Part shown: piece after piece, positions 37,801 to 53,275 of the stretch | How positions within the stretch are numbered: the stretch's first letter is position 1 | Layout: each line of letters starts with the position of its first letter | DNA from: Psychromonas sp. psych-6C06 | Lineage (GTDB): Bacteria > Pseudomonadota > Gammaproteobacteria > Enterobacterales > Psychromonadaceae | NCBI RefSeq assembly: GCF_002835465.1 | Contig: NZ_PIZM01000005.1 | Coordinates: forward strand, 62,001 to 126,000 | DNA length: 64,000 nucleotides | Reading direction: 5' to 3' | The notes under the pieces: model-generated | The model's database searches: none | The model's input: the letters and a program-made list of their open reading frames with translations, nothing else | What the model was told of the DNA's origin: nothing | Position numbers and translations under genes: made by a program

Positions 37801-40800
37801 TTATTTAACGCGCCATGCTCCCCATTCCCCGCTTGTATCGGGTTTATCACCTTGTGTCCACCATGAGGCAATATAAGTAATATCATTCATTACTACTTCA
37901 TCACCTTTTTGATAGATGCTATCGGCATTCCATTGTGGAGCTCCGCTGCAGTTAGGTTGTAACATTTTTGCATATTGTGTCACTGTCATAGTATCTGATG
38001 AAGTACCAACAGTTAGCTCATATTGGTAAGTTCTTACGGGGGGCTGAGGTATCAATAAGTCATCGGTTGTGCAAAGGTTCGTTACTGCCCAATCATCTAA
38101 GGTGATTGTGGTGGTATTTAAGCGCTGATCAACAGTAACAGGCGCTGGCGCTCCCGGTGTTATTGCTTTCCACTCTCCAAAGCCTGCTGGTTGAAAGTCA
38201 TAGGTATAAGAGGCTTTCCAGGTTGACTGAGAGCTGTCTAAAATGACAACACGATCATCATATGGCTCCACAATAACATCTTCACCGGCATCGCTGTTGT
38301 AAAGGATACTATGATAGTAATAATCGATATTTAGTGTGGGTGTGAGTGTTATTGTTGGGGTTGGAGTTGGCGTAACAAGTTGCAATGGCGCAGTTGGTGT
38401 CGCGGGTGGTGTTGGTGTAGCGGGTGTTTGCTCGCAGGCTACATCATTCCAAAACCAAGAGCCTGAACGTGGTGTTTCCCATTTTCCTGGATTGTTTTTT
38501 GCTTCAAAGCAACTATCTGCATAGCGCACGATATCGCCATTTTTTACTAACGTTTCACCAAGTGTAAACGTCATAATATCCTCAGTACCTGTAATTGGTA
38601 GGGGGGTCGGTGGCGGCGTTGGTGATACTGTTGGTGGTATCGTTGGTTGTGGTGGCAAAGAAGGCGTCGGGCATGCGAGTGGAAGCATAATATGATCCTG
38701 TGAAATAATCACTGAGTCAGTATCGTTACCGACAGTTAATTGATACTCGATTTGACGTGGTTTTTGGATGTTTGGACAGGTTGCATAGGATGGCATCCAC
38801 GACGCTAAGGTCACTGTAGTCACCAGTTCATTGGAAATAACAACATCGGGTTCACCAGCGACCACTTTCGTCCATTTCACCTCTTCATCGGTAATCGCTT
38901 GTTTATCACCATTCAATGAATATTGCACTGTTGACGCTAAGCCAGATAACGTCACTGTAGTTGCGTTAAAGCTTGCTTCGACTTTAATATCCGGGCCTGC
39001 ATTGCTGTGATAAATGACAACGGGGGCATTCGGTTTTAATGTTGGCGTTACGGCAATGGGTGTCGGCGCGATGGTTGGAATTGAAGTTGGCGTCGGAGTA
39101 GGGGCGAGCTCTCCCTTAATATTACCGACGGCTTTATTCATCGCATTTAATAGTCGTAACTCTTCATTACCGCCATCGCCATCAATGTGCCATGCCACCA
39201 TGCCACCTAGGCCCTGTTGCTGAAGAAAATCCCCTCTGGCCGCAATTGATTGTGGTGTATCATAAGCGATTAATACTTTGCCTAGGCTATCCCATGAGAA
39301 AGAAGCTTGTGCTTGTTCATCCCAGTAGTAGTTTGCGTTGGGGTTAGCAACGATATATTTTAGTGATTCGTGATAGTCAATGATGCCACTTTGATTTGGA
39401 AATTCTAATACTGACTTATCGAGAAGAGGGTGGCCACTTGCACTGCTTGGCGTGATGCCATCTTCTATTTGTACATCGAGCCAAGCAAGACCATGCATAG
39501 AGGTACCCAATACTAATTTATCGGCTGGTACGCCCTGTGCGAGTAATAAACGGGTTGCGTTTGCTACGGTGGATGATGGGCGACCAAGTGGTGCATAATC
39601 GGGAGCGGTTTGATCGCTCTGTGCAGAAGGTGCAAATTCACCAATCCCTTCACATTGCTCGGTGTTGGTTGTCGCACTACAATAAAGCGCTGATGGATGA
39701 CCTGTTTCTGTTGCCCATTCTGAAGTTAAATTATTAGGCATCATGAAAATATTGTCGAGGTATTGTGCCGCTTGCGCGTAATCGACATCTTGAAGTTTAT
39801 CCCAGCTAACGCCAATCGCTGTGGTTAACTCATATTGTCTTCCTGTCTCAGCGCTTAACTCATCAAGCATCACGCGTAACTCTTGCATTAATGCCACATA
39901 AGCAGGACCATCATTGACAGGATCGCCAAGTAGGTTATTCGCACCGCCACCTCCGGGAAATTGCCAATTAATATCTAGACCATCAAATAATTTCCATGTT
40001 TTTAGGAACTCCTTCGCCGATGCAACAAAGGTATCGCGATTGGCTTTATTAGTGAATCCATGGAATGGGTCCGATAACGTTGCGCCGCCAACTGATGGCA
40101 AGATAGTTAGGTGCGGTTGGCCTTGTTTGAGTGCCATTAGTTGGCCAAAGTTACCAGCACCGATGTCGTTGAATGCGATTGCTTTACCGTCAATGGTCAT
40201 CACTTTTTCAGACCCTCGTTGCGTACCTAAAGCTGCAAAGGTATCGTGGATCACCATTTCATAATCTTGGCTGTCGGTACAGTTTTTTTGTAATACTTTC
40301 CAACCAGTTTCATCCTCTTTTTTAAGGGATTCATTATCTCCACAAAGTGGAATAAAACCATAAATAATATGAGTTAAATTAGTCGCAGGTATATTTTCAA
40401 TAAAAAACTCTTTTTCATAAACACTCGACTCAGTAAAGTAAGCGCCGACGATTTGGTCTGGAGTTTGTTGGTAATATGGGGTATCCGAGGAAATTTTGGG
40501 TGTTAGTGGGGCAAGGTGTGAGCCATCAGTATCGGCAATCACAATCATATCCCTTTCACTGTCCGTACAGCCTTCGTTATTACAGGCGCGCACGACTATT
40601 TCTTTTAAGCCACCATGCGTTATAGAGGCAACGGTATTACCACCTTCACCAATACCTGATGAAACGACTTCATCGTTAATCAATACCTGCCATGATGTGC
40701 CTTTATCGCCAGTAAAAGCCGGAAACCATGTGATTGGCAAGTCAATTTTATCAACGCGCGTCACTTGTTTTTTATAGGTATCAGATTCAGCCACGATAGT

Positions 40801-40914
40801 AACTAAACTGAAATTGTTATATTGCTTATTTAATATTGGGGCGCTAGGCGCAGAAGCTAATGCATTTAATGTTATTGCACTGAGTATTGAAGCAGTTAAT
40901 ATGCTTTTTTTCAT
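37801..40914 (-). CDS. GH18 ChiA-like pseudo-chitinase with CBM5/12 modules
   Basis: A secreted 1037-residue protein: signal peptide (1-21), ChiA N-terminal domain (about 22-130), GH18 barrel (about 155-590), Thr-Pro linkers, two PKD-like modules and two CBM5/12 modules (SGSWFWNDVAC; ASWWTQGDKPDTSGEWG). The GH18 barrel is very similar to the next gene, but its active site is erased. The motif DxxDxDxE reads DGLDINWQ (311-318): Asp to Asn316, and the acid/base Glu to Gln318. The subsite Trp is Ala278 (GGATLSDPF), MSYD is MPNN (392-395), MYGRGW is MHGLAW, and VEWGIYGR is TESSVYEK. With Glu and Asp both lost, hydrolysis is very unlikely. The ORF is intact, so it is probably kept as a chitin-binding protein, by inference. 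Confidence 0.9.
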   Translation of the reverse strand: MKKSILTASILSAITLNALASAPSAPILNKQYNNFSLVTIVAESDTYKKQVTRVDKIDLPITWFPAFTGDKGTSWQVLINDEVVSSGIGEGGNTVASITHGGLKEIVVRACNNEGCTDSERDMIVIADTDGSHLAPLTPKISSDTPYYQQTPDQIVGAYFTESSVYEKEFFIENIPATNLTHIIYGFIPLCGDNESLKKEDETGWKVLQKNCTDSQDYEMVIHDTFAALGTQRGSEKVMTIDGKAIAFNDIGAGNFGQLMALKQGQPHLTILPSVGGATLSDPFHGFTNKANRDTFVASAKEFLKTWKLFDGLDINWQFPGGGGANNLLGDPVNDGPAYVALMQELRVMLDELSAETGRQYELTTAIGVSWDKLQDVDYAQAAQYLDNIFMMPNNLTSEWATETGHPSALYCSATTNTEQCEGIGEFAPSAQSDQTAPDYAPLGRPSSTVANATRLLLAQGVPADKLVLGTSMHGLAWLDVQIEDGITPSSASGHPLLDKSVLEFPNQSGIIDYHESLKYIVANPNANYYWDEQAQASFSWDSLGKVLIAYDTPQSIAARGDFLQQQGLGGMVAWHIDGDGGNEELRLLNAMNKAVGNIKGELAPTPTPTSIPTIAPTPIAVTPTLKPNAPVVIYHSNAGPDIKVEASFNATTVTLSGLASTVQYSLNGDKQAITDEEVKWTKVVAGEPDVVISNELVTTVTLASWMPSYATCPNIQKPRQIEYQLTVGNDTDSVIISQDHIMLPLACPTPSLPPQPTIPPTVSPTPPPTPLPITGTEDIMTFTLGETLVKNGDIVRYADSCFEAKNNPGKWETPRSGSWFWNDVACEQTPATPTPPATPTAPLQLVTPTPTPTITLTPTLNIDYYYHSILYNSDAGEDVIVEPYDDRVVILDSSQSTWKASYTYDFQPAGFGEWKAITPGAPAPVTVDQRLNTTTITLDDWAVTNLCTTDDLLIPQPPVRTYQYELTVGTSSDTMTVTQYAKMLQPNCSGAPQWNADSIYQKGDEVVMNDITYIASWWTQGDKPDTSGEWGAWRVK

Positions 40915-41134
40915 ACCATCATTCCTTTGTGTGTTGATAATGAAACATCGCTAGAGGGCGAGAACGTTTAATTGTCGTGCCTTTCCATGGCATGTTTTCA
41001 TTGCTTGGGCGTTGTAAACTACTATTTTTCGCTATCATATTTAGCGACACAAAGAACTGTAGATTATTTTTGGATGATATTTAAGTACTTGTTTTTTAAA
41101 TACATTGTAATAAGTAGGGTTATTGTTATTTGTG

Positions 41135-41148
41135 TGGGCTCGTTCCCA
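41135..41148. promoter_or_regulatory. Candidate operator upstream of pseudo-chitinase
   Basis: TGGGCTCGTTCCCA is a TGGG-N6-CCCA inverted repeat, about 221-234 bases before the gene start. The same half-sites and most of the spacer recur upstream of the GH18 gene at 44327 and of the GH9 gene. Confidence 0.4.
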
Positions 41149-41171
41149 TTTTTGTTGAGGGGTAAATAAAA

Positions 41172-44327: not shown

Positions 44328-44628
44328 ACAGTCATTCCTTTGTTTAAAATGGTGAACAATTTGGAATGCGCGCGGATAGTGGCAAGTTATAGCAAAACTT
44401 GCTTAGTGATATGATTCGCCTATCCATGGCATTAATAACCACTTTTTAACAACCTGCTCCTAAGAACTAGGTAGTGGTGATCCAAATTAGTTGATCTCCT
44501 GATCAGTTCGGATTATTTGATGTAGCTAATTTTTATAAACTACATATTAACTGTAAGTGATATTTGATTGTTTTCTCAGCGATACATCATTAACTGTGAA
44601 CTGCTTAACGATTAGAATAGTAAATTTG

Positions 44629-44642
44629 TGGGTTCGTTCCCA
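44629..44642. promoter_or_regulatory. Candidate operator upstream of GH18 gene 2
   Basis: TGGGTTCGTTCCCA, TGGG-N6-CCCA, lies 302-315 bases before the gene start, with the same TCGTT core as the site at 41135. Confidence 0.4.
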
Positions 44643-44719
44643 TTGCGGGTGTTTAACCACTTTGAAATATTTTCACAAGCAATTAAAGAAAAGGGGGAAA
44701 GTAGTCAGAAGGAGGCTTT

Positions 44720-47297: not shown

Positions 47298-47804
47298 ATA
47301 CTCAGTCCTTTACTTGTAAATGATTGTTTTACATGGGTAAAGCTAAGAATAGGCAGCAGTATAAGTAAGGGGGGGAGAGTTATCCACGGTAGAGTGAATC
47401 GTCCTTATTCATATTATCGCCAATCCTTGGCTTACATTACTAATAGTTTTACGGTCTCCTGACCCTATTAGTAACTTTTCAAACAGATCTCATCTTGAGA
47501 CAGAAACACTATATGACTTTTATTCTGAGATAACAATAGGTTTGTGGTAAATAATATGATGTCAATCGTATTAAAAAACATCGTTGTGATGTTTTTTTGT
47601 ACCTATAAGTAAACATTTTTAACAAAAAATTAACAAGTTGTGCCTTTTCTGTGAAATAGATCGAGATTAGAATGGCAAGATATGTAAAATGCCCCTCTGT
47701 GGCCTAGGTCACTTTTTGAACACTTTGGTTATCCATCAATTGCAAGATGTCAATTGAACTTAACCTCTTTATGGATTGTTTTTTAGCAAAAGGAGTTGTA
47801 CGAG
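47298..47804. promoter_or_regulatory. Shared chiA / LPMO divergent promoter region
   Basis: A 507-bp region between the divergent chitinase and LPMO genes. A CRP-like site, TGTGG-CCTAGG-TCACT at 47698-47713, lies about 92 bases before the LPMO ATG; it has both TGTG and TCAC half-sites. The TGGG-N6-CCCA motif of the other cluster genes was not found here. An inverted pair, AAACATCG and GATGTTTTT, near 47570-47600 gives a hairpin. AAGGAG lies before the LPMO start. Confidence 0.4.
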
Positions 47805-49355
47805 ATGAAACGTTTTAGTTTAAAACTGTTGTCGGTTGCGATGTTTGGTAGTGCTGTTATTACTAGTTTGCCAGTGGCTGCACATGGTTACTTAAAAATT
47901 GCACGTCAAGTAAATTGTTATAACGATGGTGGCTACTGGTCACCGAATGGTTCTGCTATTCCTAATGCCGCTTGTAAAGCAGCATTTGATGAAAGTGGTA
48001 CAACGCAATTTATTCAAAAGAATGAAATTGCAAAATTGGTCAGTGATTACAACAATATGGACGCCGTTAAACGCGCTATTCCCGATGGAGAAATATGTTC
48101 TGCAGGAGACAGCAGTAAATCAGGATTAAATATTCCCCATCCAGATTGGAAAAAAACTGCGGTGCAAGTAAGTGCTGAAAACACTATTGCCATTGAGCAT
48201 GTTGCTACTGCACCACACAACCCTTCTTTCCGTCAATTTTATCTTACCAAAGAGAGCTACGACCCTAGTATGCCAATTAAATGGGATGATTTAGAGTTGA
48301 TTCACTATGATGATTATACCGTTATGGAAAAAGGCAATACTTTCGTGATTCCTGTTCCTGCAGGGCGAAGTGGTGATGCTGTATTAGTGAGTCGTTGGCA
48401 GCGTTATGATCCAGCTGGTGAAGGTTTTTATAACTGTGCTGATATCACACTAGTGTCTGATGGTAGCGTACCAACAGAGCCAACACCAGAGCCGACAGAT
48501 CCTGTTGTAAGTTTGGTAGAATTAGGTAGTTTCTTAGAGACTGGTATTATCAGCAATAGTGAGATTGATGATAGCGTTCGTTTTCGTATTTTCGATGCAA
48601 CGGGTGTAGAAACGACTGATGTTTCACTACAAATCACTGCTCAAAACCTAGATTCATGGCCTGGTGATATCGCCGATATGGTAATGCAAGATACTAAGGA
48701 CACTTGGGTAATTGGTAACTGGCATGGCGATCATTACATGTATGATTGGAACAACCACTATGCAAATAAAGTGTTTGCGCCAAGTGCTGATTTTGCTTAT
48801 CAATTATCGTTAGTTAAATTTGTTCCAACGCCGGAAGTGTCGCCAACGCCTGTTGTTGCTACGCCAACACCTTCCCCAACACCAGTAATTGTAACAGCAA
48901 CACCAATCATCACTCCTCCCCCTGTAACGGGTGATGTGATTGCTTTTGTACCTGGTGAGACGATAGTAGCTAATGGTGATATTGTTAGTTATGACGGATC
49001 ATGTTTTGAAGCTAAGAATAACCCTGGTATCTGGGAAGCTCCTTCTAGCGCATCGTGGTTCTGGAGCGAAGTACCTTGTGAAGGTGGTGTCGAGGTTACG
49101 CCAACACCAGCTCCTATCGCAACGCCGACACCTGTGGTTACTCAAGCTCCTACGATGACACCTGCACCTACAGCGACACCTGCTCCAGTGGTAACGCCAA
49201 CGCCTGTTGTTGGTGAGTCTACATGGGAAGCTGAGAAAGTTTACAATACTGGAGACACTGTAGTTGTTGATGGTATTACTTACACAGCAGGCTGGTGGAC
49301 GAAAGGTGATAAACCTGGAACAACTGGTCAATGGGGTGTTTGGAAAGCGAAATAA
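47805..49355 (+). CDS. AA10 lytic polysaccharide monooxygenase with CBM5/12 modules
   Basis: A secreted copper enzyme that cleaves crystalline chitin oxidatively and helps the chitinases. The start is ATG 47805, with AAGGAG nine bases upstream; an upstream TTG at 47796 overlaps this signal. The signal peptide ends after VAA, leaving His27 as mature His1, and His138 in TAPHNPSF is the second copper ligand; together they form the histidine brace. The AA10 domain (27-225) is followed by a Thr-Pro linker, a module at about 245-345 (GbpA-like, not firmly identified), and two CBM5/12 modules (SASWFWSEVPC; AGWWTKGDKPGTTGQWG). Total length 516. Confidence 0.93.
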   Translation: MKRFSLKLLSVAMFGSAVITSLPVAAHGYLKIARQVNCYNDGGYWSPNGSAIPNAACKAAFDESGTTQFIQKNEIAKLVSDYNNMDAVKRAIPDGEICSAGDSSKSGLNIPHPDWKKTAVQVSAENTIAIEHVATAPHNPSFRQFYLTKESYDPSMPIKWDDLELIHYDDYTVMEKGNTFVIPVPAGRSGDAVLVSRWQRYDPAGEGFYNCADITLVSDGSVPTEPTPEPTDPVVSLVELGSFLETGIISNSEIDDSVRFRIFDATGVETTDVSLQITAQNLDSWPGDIADMVMQDTKDTWVIGNWHGDHYMYDWNNHYANKVFAPSADFAYQLSLVKFVPTPEVSPTPVVATPTPSPTPVIVTATPIITPPPVTGDVIAFVPGETIVANGDIVSYDGSCFEAKNNPGIWEAPSSASWFWSEVPCEGGVEVTPTPAPIATPTPVVTQAPTMTPAPTATPAPVVTPTPVVGESTWEAEKVYNTGDTVVVDGITYTAGWWTKGDKPGTTGQWGVWKAK

Positions 49356-49538: not shown

Positions 49539-51941
49539 TTAGATTTTTCTCCACACTCCCCATTGGCCAGATTTTTCAGGATCTTGGCCTTGTGTCCACC
49601 ATGCAGCACGATAAGTTATACCATTAACTGTGACTTGATCACCTCCATTATAGATAGCTGTTGCACTCCATGTTGTGTTGCCGTTGGGTGTTGGTGTAAC
49701 AGTTGGTGTTATCACTGGCGTAGGTGTTGTTGTGATTATTGGTGTCGCCGTAATACTTGGCGTAGGGGTAACTGTTGGCGTTGGTGTGCTGATCACATCG
49801 CCACATGATACTTGCTCCCAGAACCAAGAGTTTACTGAAGGTGTTTCCCAAACGCCTGGATTATTTTTAGCTTGATAGCAACTATTTTGGTAACTAACAA
49901 TCTCACCATTTTTAGCGCGTGTTTTTCCGGCAATAAAAGAGGGATATTCAATTACAGGAGTCGGCGTAATCGTTGGCGTCGGTGTAATGACAGCTGGAGT
50001 TGGGGTCATCGTCGGAGTTGGTGTAATGATTACGGGAGTCGGCGTAATCGTTGGCGTCGGTGTGATGATTGCGGGAGTAGGTGTCATCGTGGGTGTCGGT
50101 GTAATGACAGCCGGAGTTGGGGTAATCGTCGGAGTCGGTGTACTGACTATTGGTGTAGGGGTAATAATTGGTGTTGGCGTGATCACTGTTTTGGGTTGTA
50201 ATGCACTGATACTACTCAGTAGATAAACCGTAGCAGCTTGTCCGAAAATGGTTGTTTCTTGATTACTGTAATTACGGTTATGATTCACAAAAATATACTT
50301 TTGTGTATCAAATACGCTGTTATCGAGCATTGCTTGCATTTCTGATTTGTAGGGTTGTGCGATTGCCCCACTTGAAAGTGCATCTAGCAGTGAAGCACGA
50401 TCAACAGGCCCCTCTGAAACGGCTCCAACGGGTTTATTGCCAGAAAGACGGTACATTTGATGATAGATTTGATCCGCACTCTTAAGTACTTTATCTGAAA
50501 CGACAAAGCTTGTTCCCCAATTATTTTTTCCGTACAGGTAATCAAGGTTGTCATAAGCAAGAGGAAGGTAATACTCATCGCCACTTAATGCGTGCTCAGC
50601 AGCCATTGCACCAATTAGTAGATTATTATAAAGAGAAGCCCAATAGATAGTACTCGGTAATCCCCAAATATTTCCTGTTTGCTTTTTCGCAAAGTTGTTG
50701 AAAATCTCCAACTCGTAGGTGAATTGATTGTTAGCATGGTTATCAAATTCTCCTAAACGCTGATTGGCAGAAAGTGAATAGGATGCCCAGCTTGCGGTAT
50801 ATTGAGGTTGTAAATTGATTGCTTTTGCCGCTTCTAAGTATTGTGTATCAGCACTGGCTTGATAAAGTTCAACGGCGGCTAATGCTTTATTATCTTGTTC
50901 ACTGTCATCTGGGTAGAACCACTCTCGGTCGTAGGGGAGGTAGTTGAGTCGGTCACTTGATTGTGCCGCTTTCCATATCGCTTTTGCTTTGCTCAGGTAA
51001 CGTTCACTTAATTCAGTGTCGAAGGGTTTAAATGTTGTTGCACCATGGGCAAGGGCTGCTGCGACTAAAAACATATTGGGCGCATATTTAGCTGCAAAAG
51101 CGGGGCGGTCAAAGCCATTTAATCGGTCATCTTCAGGGTAACGATCGGCTTGATTATGATCTTTATGAGAACCCACTTGATTAATAAAAACGTCATCACT
51201 AGGCAGCAGTTTAACGAGGTAATCCAAACCATGCTTTGCTTCATCAAGAATATCAACGTAATTGGAGTTACTTAATACTTTTTTATGAATGCTAGGGTTT
51301 ACTTCATAGGCGCGCGTTAGGTAATAAGCGGTCACGGCATTAGTTAATGAAAACTTTATATAGTCGCCAGCGTCGTACCAGCCTCCAGTTGCATCAACGG
51401 TGAACTGAGTATTTTTCCATTGTGTACTCTGAGCGCCAGCTGTTGCTGGGCCACTGGCTTCAACTACTTTTGCGAACTCGTCGTCCATATGCGAAAGGCT
51501 ATGATTAAGCGTATCCGCAGTACCACTTCGTGCTGTTTTAAGGTGGGTTAATAGTTGTGTTAACTCACCGGCATACAGGTCTGTATTAATGTTAAACAGC
51601 GTGTGTGCTGTTTCACCATCGGGAAGGGTTACTTGAATACGATAATCACCAGTTTCACGAAGCTGGGAAAGGTCAATCTCATGATTGGAAATAAAAGGGG
51701 AGTAATCACTTTTACTCACATTATTACTATTAATATTGCCAGTTAATACCGTTTGTCCGTTTTTAACCACTTGGTAAGTCGCTTGTTGTAATGATTTGTC
51801 TGACATCACAACCAGCACTTTTTCGCGATCTGGAGTATAACCAAGTTGATTCCCACGTAAGTAGGTATCTGCATTGATAGCGGGGCTAATAGCTAATGAT
51901 ACTGCACTCGCGAGCAGTGTTTTTAATATTTTGTGTTGCAT
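49539..51941 (-). CDS. GH9 glycoside hydrolase with CBM5/12 modules
   Basis: A secreted 800-residue enzyme. Signal peptide 1-24, an Ig-like CelD_N domain (about 26-115), then the GH9 (alpha/alpha)6 barrel (about 120-575). The catalytic nucleophile region GGWYDAGDYIKF (186-197) holds the paired Asp residues, and the acid region reads NHNRNYSNQETTI with the Glu; both are intact. A long linker with 13-residue TPTP repeats and two CBM5/12 modules (VNSWFWEQVSC; AAWWTQGQDPEKSGQWG) follow. GH9 enzymes are mostly endoglucanases, but the CBM type and the gene neighbours point to chitin or chitosan; substrate is not proved. It converges on the LPMO gene. Confidence 0.9.
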   Translation of the reverse strand: MQHKILKTLLASAVSLAISPAINADTYLRGNQLGYTPDREKVLVVMSDKSLQQATYQVVKNGQTVLTGNINSNNVSKSDYSPFISNHEIDLSQLRETGDYRIQVTLPDGETAHTLFNINTDLYAGELTQLLTHLKTARSGTADTLNHSLSHMDDEFAKVVEASGPATAGAQSTQWKNTQFTVDATGGWYDAGDYIKFSLTNAVTAYYLTRAYEVNPSIHKKVLSNSNYVDILDEAKHGLDYLVKLLPSDDVFINQVGSHKDHNQADRYPEDDRLNGFDRPAFAAKYAPNMFLVAAALAHGATTFKPFDTELSERYLSKAKAIWKAAQSSDRLNYLPYDREWFYPDDSEQDNKALAAVELYQASADTQYLEAAKAINLQPQYTASWASYSLSANQRLGEFDNHANNQFTYELEIFNNFAKKQTGNIWGLPSTIYWASLYNNLLIGAMAAEHALSGDEYYLPLAYDNLDYLYGKNNWGTSFVVSDKVLKSADQIYHQMYRLSGNKPVGAVSEGPVDRASLLDALSSGAIAQPYKSEMQAMLDNSVFDTQKYIFVNHNRNYSNQETTIFGQAATVYLLSSISALQPKTVITPTPIITPTPIVSTPTPTITPTPAVITPTPTMTPTPAIITPTPTITPTPVIITPTPTMTPTPAVITPTPTITPTPVIEYPSFIAGKTRAKNGEIVSYQNSCYQAKNNPGVWETPSVNSWFWEQVSCGDVISTPTPTVTPTPSITATPIITTTPTPVITPTVTPTPNGNTTWSATAIYNGGDQVTVNGITYRAAWWTQGQDPEKSGQWGVWRKI
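49950..50200 (-). repeat. Linker-encoding tandem repeat in GH9 gene
   Basis: The DNA codes repeats of a 13-residue unit alternating TPTPxxI and TPTPTx, near 39 bp in period, over about 80 residues. Copies differ in third positions and in I/V/M/A at two places, so the array expanded and then drifted. Confidence 0.7.
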
Positions 51942-52411: not shown

Positions 52412-53275
52412 TTATTTAGCAGATAATAATTCAGGATTAATCACTAGGTTTCTTACGCCATGTGCATGATCTTCGTTGAACACATTACCTTCAAGCCATT
52501 TACCCACTGTGTGAATATTTACTTTAGCAATCTTAGGGCGAACACTCCATGATACTTGAAAAGGAGAAGCTTTTTCATTATAGCTAGGTCCTGTCGTTGA
52601 GCCCGCATATTGTACCGCTTCACCAGTATTGCTTGGGATGTTTAATGCCTGTTGATAGCCATTTTTAATGCCATGGGCAGTTAAGTCGCTAAAATCTAGT
52701 GCCTTATCATCATTCACTAAAACGTAAACTTGTGTTTCAACACGTAGTTGCGGATTGCCTATGGAATCATCTAAACAAGCGCCTAATGTTGGTCCAGGTT
52801 TAACTTGTGCGCTTGAGTGAACGTAGTGAACCTCAATGGTATCACCGGGATATAAGCTACCATGCTTACTTTCACCTATCTTGTGTTTAAGAGGCGCTAG
52901 CTCTGCTTTACTTAATTTACCAGAATAAACATAACCGCTGTGGTAGCCATGGCCATCGCCATTACCTGCATATTTATTAAATTCGCCACCTTTATGTTCA
53001 GCATTTTTATGAAAGTGGATATTGCACAAGTTCATTTCCGTGTAAGCCGGAGCGCTACCAAAGTCACGTTGGTTTGTACCTTTAATGACATCAATGTCAC
53101 GCGGTGACTGCGGGCCAAAGCCTTTTCCTGCTGTATTTTCAGCAAGTTGAGCACGTTGAGCTTTGATCACACTATCGGCAACTTGATCTGTGTGTTCTGT
53201 ATGGGTATCAGCTGCATTGACAGCGCTTGGCAGAAGAGCGACTGATGCACAGAAGATAAGTGTTTTTTTATTCAT
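52412..53275 (-). CDS. Delta-class carbonic anhydrase, exported
   Basis: Interconverts CO2 and bicarbonate. A signal peptide ends near residue 22 (VNAA). The protein shows a His-rich motif, NLCNIHFHKNAEHKG, which is the mark of proteins named delta-class carbonic anhydrase in marine bacteria and diatoms, and further on GNGDGHGYHSGYVY and YPGDTIEVHYVHSS. The zinc ligands probably are His residues of HFH and the later VHYVH, by inference. Length 287. It acts in the periplasm and stands alone between the GH9 gene and the transporter. Family recognised from memory, not by search. Confidence 0.8.
   Translation of the reverse strand: MNKKTLIFCASVALLPSAVNAADTHTEHTDQVADSVIKAQRAQLAENTAGKGFGPQSPRDIDVIKGTNQRDFGSAPAYTEMNLCNIHFHKNAEHKGGEFNKYAGNGDGHGYHSGYVYSGKLSKAELAPLKHKIGESKHGSLYPGDTIEVHYVHSSAQVKPGPTLGACLDDSIGNPQLRVETQVYVLVNDDKALDFSDLTAHGIKNGYQQALNIPSNTGEAVQYAGSTTGPSYNEKASPFQVSWSVRPKIAKVNIHTVGKWLEGNVFNEDHAHGVRNLVINPELLSAK

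Follow-up and report, generated by a model that had tools for sequence, protein, structure and literature searches.

The minus strand of positions 37,801 to 40,914 of the window (the whole 64,000-nucleotide stretch of Psychromonas DNA analysed) carries the intact coding sequence of P0001, a ChiA-type protein of 1037 aa whose GH18 active site has been erased by a set of substitutions that is far beyond chance. Judged from its sequence, P0001 has almost certainly lost the ability to catalyse by the GH18 mechanism, and purifying selection acted over its branch taken as a whole. We suggest, with a confidence that is evenly balanced, that P0001 is a duplicate of the neighbouring chitinase P0002 that may have turned into a secreted, non-hydrolytic, chitin-associated protein, anchored by its CBMs and with its barrel as a non-cutting platform.

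Gene organization of the locus

P0001 (Pfam ChitinaseA_N, Glyco_hydro_18 and CBM_5_12) is surrounded by a chitin-use cluster of chitinases, an AA10 LPMO and a GH9 enzyme. Its reading frame lies on the minus strand, the plus strand of the same interval being full of stops, and it closes a minus-strand series of three ChiA-type genes, in which P0003 (45,048-47,297), an intact chitinase gene with strong codon bias, is followed by the sister chitinase gene P0002 (41,214-44,327), with catalytic residues intact, and then by P0001. Domain searches identified the LPMO, with GbpA_2 and CBM5/12, on the plus strand (47,796-49,355), and the GH9 enzyme, with two CBM5/12 modules, on the minus strand (49,539-51,941). 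The active sister lies only 300 bp from P0001 and, as a product of the same duplication, offers a built-in control.

A terminator-like hairpin is found 3' of P0001 (37,706-37,734, minus strand), and hairpins of the same kind, AAGGGATGC..GCATCCCTT-T, lie 3' of P0002 (41,172-41,192) and P0003 (45,003-45,024); since each chitinase gene has its own hairpin, the three look like separate transcription units. The upstream regions of P0001 and P0002 have in common the exactly matching element ATGGGAACGAGCCCACA (41,133-41,149, minus strand; P0002 copy at 44,627-44,643), and exact copies of this 17-bp element, ATGGGAACGARCCCACA, occur at these two genes only, two in the genome. Elsewhere in the window, a delta carbonic anhydrase is predicted on the minus strand at 52,412-53,275 (PF10563, E 1.8e-82); this family was first known from diatoms.

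Domain architecture and fold

P0001 opens with a signal peptide of about residues 1-21 (MKKSILTASILSAITLNALAS; 40,852-40,914, minus strand, as are all features of the protein), read from the sequence by a K-rich start, a hydrophobic core and an ALA-S site. It is followed by ChitinaseA_N at residues 21-150 (40,465-40,854; PF08329, E 7.9e-28) and by the GH18 barrel with the erased active site at residues 158-580 (39,175-40,443; PF00704, E 2.4e-58, 198.7 bits), in which the catalytic motif reads DGLDINWQ (39,961-39,984; D313 to N and E315 to Q in ChiA numbering). Beyond the barrel come a PKD/Ig-like beta-sandwich common to P0002 (about residues 632-750; 38,665-39,021; placed by alignment to P0002), a first CBM5/12-like module (about residues 780-828; 38,431-38,577) that aligns to the modules of P0002 and P0003 and falls below the Pfam cut-off in P0001, a second Ig/PKD-like region (about residues 865-988; 37,951-38,322; read from sequence) at a place where P0002 has none, and a C-terminal CBM5/12 (residues 994-1034; 37,813-37,935; PF02839, E 1.6e-6). 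In P0002 an additional Ig-like region precedes the PKD-like domain, whereas P0001 has its second sandwich-like region between its two CBMs; the kinds of all these Ig, PKD and sandwich regions were read from sequence, with no Pfam match. Both proteins do have 1037 aa, as originally pointed out, but the shared length is a coincidence because their C-terminal halves carry different domains.

The profile match and the (beta/alpha)8 barrel place P0001 in GH18, and ChitinaseA_N and its position in the ChiA tree place it in the ChiA subfamily. The barrel was modelled with a pLDDT of 83 and a pTM of 0.86, and its best PDB matches are ChiA structures (3b9e, 3b9a, 1edq and 1ehn); prediction is poor for the cleft loops at 395-398, 425-432, 440-444 and 493-506, and single-sequence fold prediction of residues 600-1037 gave a pLDDT of 34.5. 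The C-terminal CBM5/12 has the conserved aromatics and SWWT motif of a chitin-binding module of this family, keeping W995, Y1001, Y1014, W1018, W1019, W1031 and W1034, and the aromatics of the first module are kept in the alignment with the modules of P0002 and P0003. The original prediction of a retained signal peptide, barrel framework and pair of CBM5/12 modules is hence borne out, with the signal peptide read from sequence.

Loss of the active site

Six motif changes from the sister to P0001 had been named beforehand, and all are present: DGIDIDWE to DGLDINWQ (codons at 39,961-39,984), GGW to GGA, MSYD to MPNN, MYGRGW to MHGLAW, WEAG to NQSG and VEWGIYGR to TESSVYEK. Near-invariant columns were defined from an alignment with 38 other ChiA-type proteins; P0001 is changed at 33 of 182 of them, as against 3 of 184 in P0002 and 5 of 185 in L054, the nearest outside relative. 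These changes affect 13 of the 19 contact columns and 20 of the 163 other near-invariant columns (Fisher p = 3e-7). The list of substrate contacts is backed by the literature in part; for the nine residues that rest on published work (PMC5132251; PMC6145945), the enrichment is 6/9 vs 27/173 (p = 0.001). Several of the changes differ from the sister by two or three nucleotides, as at W275 (TGG to GCA) and W472 (TGG to AAT).

In S. marcescens numbering, the residues lost are W167S, R172K, W275A, D313N, E315Q, Y390N, D391N, Y418S, Y444H, R446L, W472N, E473Q and E540H, and those kept are Y163, T276, D311, F316, M388, the +2 aromatic (F396/W397) and the -1 tryptophan (W539/W570). The assertion that almost every active-site residue had changed is therefore too broad.

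ChiA mutants of D313 and E315 are described as inactive (PMC6145945; PMC5132251), and E315Q and D313A ChiA are inactive forms used in crystallography (PMC5132251; PMC6145945), so that loss of the GH18 reaction in P0001 is close to certain. Where an active GH18 chitinase has DxxDxDxE, which supplies the catalytic Glu (E315) and the assisting Asp (D313), and the Tyr and Asp of MxYD, P0001 has DGLDINWQ and MPNN. One could still imagine P0001 as an enzyme whose catalysis is modified or of another kind, given the intact fold and the retention of D311, W539 and M388, but we regard this as highly improbable: E315Q, D313N, Y390N and D391N together would abolish the substrate-assisted mechanism, in agreement with the loss of catalysis first predicted.

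Selection and ancestry

The 1037 codons of P0001 contain 0 stops and no frameshifts, whereas about five stops are expected by 5% divergence in a simulation of neutral drift, and GC content at the three codon positions (0.52/0.45/0.36) is as in a normal gene. Neutrality (omega = 1) is rejected on the P0001 branch both with P0001 and P0002 as sisters (2 delta lnL 110, or 55 lnL units) and under the other topology (2 delta lnL 59). The branch omega of about 0.07 (codon model, five genes) is an average that spans the periods before and after inactivation, and dS is near or at saturation (about 2.7 between P0001 and P0002), so that neutrality can safely be rejected but the omega value itself is unreliable; the pairwise dS values to L054 and L042 are saturated, and the omegas derived from them were left unused. 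P0001 thus has none of the stops, frameshifts or omega near 1 of a pseudogene, and its retention as a coding gene, as proposed at the outset, is upheld. With a normal codon signal, neutrality rejected, a confident barrel and CBM aromatics kept, it is not simple junk.

P0001, P0002 and L054 form one group at 100/100 in the tree, a support that applies to the trio and not to its internal order, and the codon model prefers the pairing of P0001 with P0002 by 10.7 lnL. The P0001 branch is very long, at 0.6 vs 0.015 for P0002 (about 40-fold), with 92 vs 6 lineage-specific replacements, and the codon adaptation of P0001 (0.53, the window average) is below that of P0002 (0.58) and P0003 (0.79). These features, together with the empty orthologue search described below, would suit a decaying duplicate that has lost its function, whose unheld cleft drifts first and whose frame is intact because inactivation was recent or its cost mild. 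Such decay is, in our view, improbable, as it must contend with a frame free of stops and frameshifts despite a dS of about 2.7 to the sister, with the rejection of omega = 1, with changes that fall on contact residues more than on the rest of the near-invariant set, and with the retained CBM aromatics.

Search for orthologues and other dead GH18 proteins

The original prediction had proposed looking for orthologues with the same substitutions, and none was found with peptide patterns in 85k genomes, with a DNA pattern or in other searches for relatives. The peptide-pattern scan gave no match, and the DNA pattern DG-D-[DN]WQ[FY]P, in the same number of genomes, matched 9 contigs, 0 of them of ChiA type (7 Psychromonas lipoproteins, 1 Clostridia GH18 and 1 Streptomyces GH18, the latter two with Glu to Gln); the DNA pattern is blind to other substitutions (it would miss the G369 protein described below), and records near the Psychromonas genome of the window may be left out. 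Broader pattern scans also covered class and order, and the plasmid collection yielded only matches below 60% identity. In the order and in the family of G206, 142 ChiA-type copies were read, and 140 of them keep the catalytic Glu, the exceptions being P0001 and the G369 protein. The nearest outside relative of P0002 (L206:967-3615, in G206, a genome of another family; 84% identity) has very long PTPT linkers, and this chiA was probably transferred horizontally.

The G369 protein (L210:5239-7200) consists of ChiA_N and GH18 in an intact ORF with W275A, E315Q and D311N. It has an orthologue of 77% identity with the same neighbours in G667 (L234:8814-10775; neighbour identities in G667 assigned by size and order), the two species belonging to a genus of a family other than that of P0001. 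The gene is flanked by a prepilin peptidase gene on one side and another chitinase gene on the other, and GspE/GspF-like genes adjoin. Comparison of the two orthologues gives a dS of 0.64 and an omega of 0.22, and neutrality (omega = 1) is rejected at a cost of 71 lnL units; hence at least one dead ChiA has been kept under purifying selection after loss of the catalytic Glu. The tree places the G369 protein far from P0001, with L022 and L021, and W275A and E315Q arose independently in the two lineages. Both proteins adjoin a second chitinase gene and have ChiA_N, GH18, an intact ORF and these two changes; the G369/G667 protein, unlike P0001, belongs to a separate lineage, has D311N rather than D313N, keeps W167, has lost W539 and the +2 aromatic, and lies beside type II secretion-like genes. 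It ends in PKD without CBM5/12, and the argument from CBMs therefore does not extend to it.

The scans also brought up further GH18 proteins that lack the catalytic Glu. A GH18-like lipoprotein of about 360 aa (G000:C1:435719-436792; L230:5720-6793; relatives L089-L106) is present in 18 of 24 Psychromonas genomes with the catalytic Glu replaced in 18 of 18 (by Gln in 15, and by Ser, Arg and Lys in one each) and the MxYD Tyr lost, making it a dead GH18 that is conserved genus-wide and stands well apart from ChiA-type proteins such as P0001. Two genomes of the same genus as that of the window have lipoprotein sequences whose starts agree with those on contigs of P. arctica DSM 14288 and Psychromonas sp. 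SA13A, which places the window in Psychromonas. L052 and L047, from Streptomyces albipurpureus and a Clostridia MAG, are GH18 proteins with the catalytic Glu changed to Gln in an otherwise chitinase-like sequence.

Possible function of P0001

The original prediction invoked selection for binding without cutting. For the cleft of the barrel this is doubtful because the aromatics of subsites -3 (W167) and +1 (W275) are lost, and R446, W472, E473 and E540 are lost as well. Loss of the -3 and +1 stacking residues along with the catalytic ones also makes it unlikely that the barrel threads chitin as ChiA does, and chitin binding would more likely rest on the CBMs and the N-domain than on the cleft. 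A decoy role against chitinase inhibitors, which had been considered, is likewise unlikely, since the groove residues that such inhibitors use are gone.

We posit that the P0002 gene was tandemly duplicated and that the copy became non-hydrolytic; P0001 would then be exported and use its N-terminal domain and both CBM5/12 modules to anchor itself on chitin. Its dead barrel would serve as a bulky platform that does not cut, instead of a groove that threads chains, in an adhesin, a spacer or an accessory protein that may hold cells or enzymes on chitin or compete for surface sites. Besides the features described above, this proposal draws support from the gene's own terminator, from the upstream element exactly shared with P0002 and from the independent dead ChiA kept in G369 and G667; against it stand the empty orthologue search and the difference in branch length from the sister. 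Should P0001 have a function that is kept, bacterial chitin degradation would gain a component that does not catalyse but anchors, presents or competes.

It is also conceivable, though unlikely, that the barrel gained a new ligand (another glycan, a chito-oligosaccharide bound anew or a protein partner) that drove its fast change, and that the CBMs only localise it. Changes concentrated in the cleft, some of two or three nucleotides, with other positions conserved, are what such a gain might produce, and a long yet constrained branch fits neofunctionalisation; even so, a conserved set of new residues is not demonstrable without orthologues, and the cleft loops are those that were poorly predicted.

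Comparison with known systems

Among characterized proteins, P0001 is closest in plan to the ChiA of S. marcescens and V. harveyi (about 41% identity to the latter), with which it shares the signal peptide and ChitinaseA_N joined to a GH18 barrel, and from which it differs by W167S, W275A, D313N, E315Q, Y390N, D391N, Y444H, R446L, W472N, E473Q and E540H. Annotation pipelines score such genes as chitinases, and hence overestimate the capacity to degrade chitin wherever there are dead copies.

The parallel drawn with YKL-40-type chi-lectins holds in part. Like the chitinase-like lectins of animals and plants (YKL-39/YKL-40, Ym1, IDGF, TCLL), P0001 has lost the catalytic Glu and is predicted to be secreted. 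In chi-lectins of the YKL-40 type the aromatic cleft is mostly retained, and binding-cleft residues are present in those chitinase-like lectins for which binding of chito-oligosaccharides has been shown. P0001, unlike them, has CBM5/12 modules and has lost the -3 and +1 stacking residues (W167 to S, W275 to A, and W472 to N besides; W539 and the +2 aromatic are kept), which is a point against the comparison. The change of Glu to Gln is also found in Ym1/Ym2 and in the imaginal disc growth factors of Drosophila (PMC1945033).

The supposed lack of bacterial parallels does not hold, as dead GH18s conserved in Bacteroidales have been published, although these are endoglycosidase-like and not ChiA-like: the BT1284 family comprises 85 sequences from at least 20 species, and neither hydrolysis nor N-glycan binding was detected for proteins of this type (PMC11180146). 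BT1284 and the B. faecium GH18-like protein resemble P0001 in being bacterial proteins that conserve the GH18 fold, have other residues in place of both catalytic acids and are encoded beside an active paralogue (PMC11180146). The BT1284 type belongs to the endoglycosidase branch and has DUF1735, with no CBM5/12 reported (PMC11180146), whereas P0001 belongs to the ChiA branch and lies in a chitin cluster. In the literature searched, which included few subscription journals, we found no ChiA-type bacterial pseudo-chitinase that is secreted, bears CBMs and lies in a chitin cluster.

Dead GH18s were thus known already in animals, plants and Bacteroidales, and what appears to be new with P0001 is a ChiA-type, CBM-bearing and probably secreted one; the independent conserved dead ChiA of G369/G667 and the genus-wide dead GH18 lipoprotein are also new. 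It is possible, if somewhat short of an even chance, that bacterial chitin users have repeatedly made kept non-hydrolytic GH18s, as in P0001, the ChiA of the other family and the Psychromonas lipoprotein. If this is true, dead GH18s would be a recurrent functional part of chitin use in bacteria, like chi-lectins in animals.
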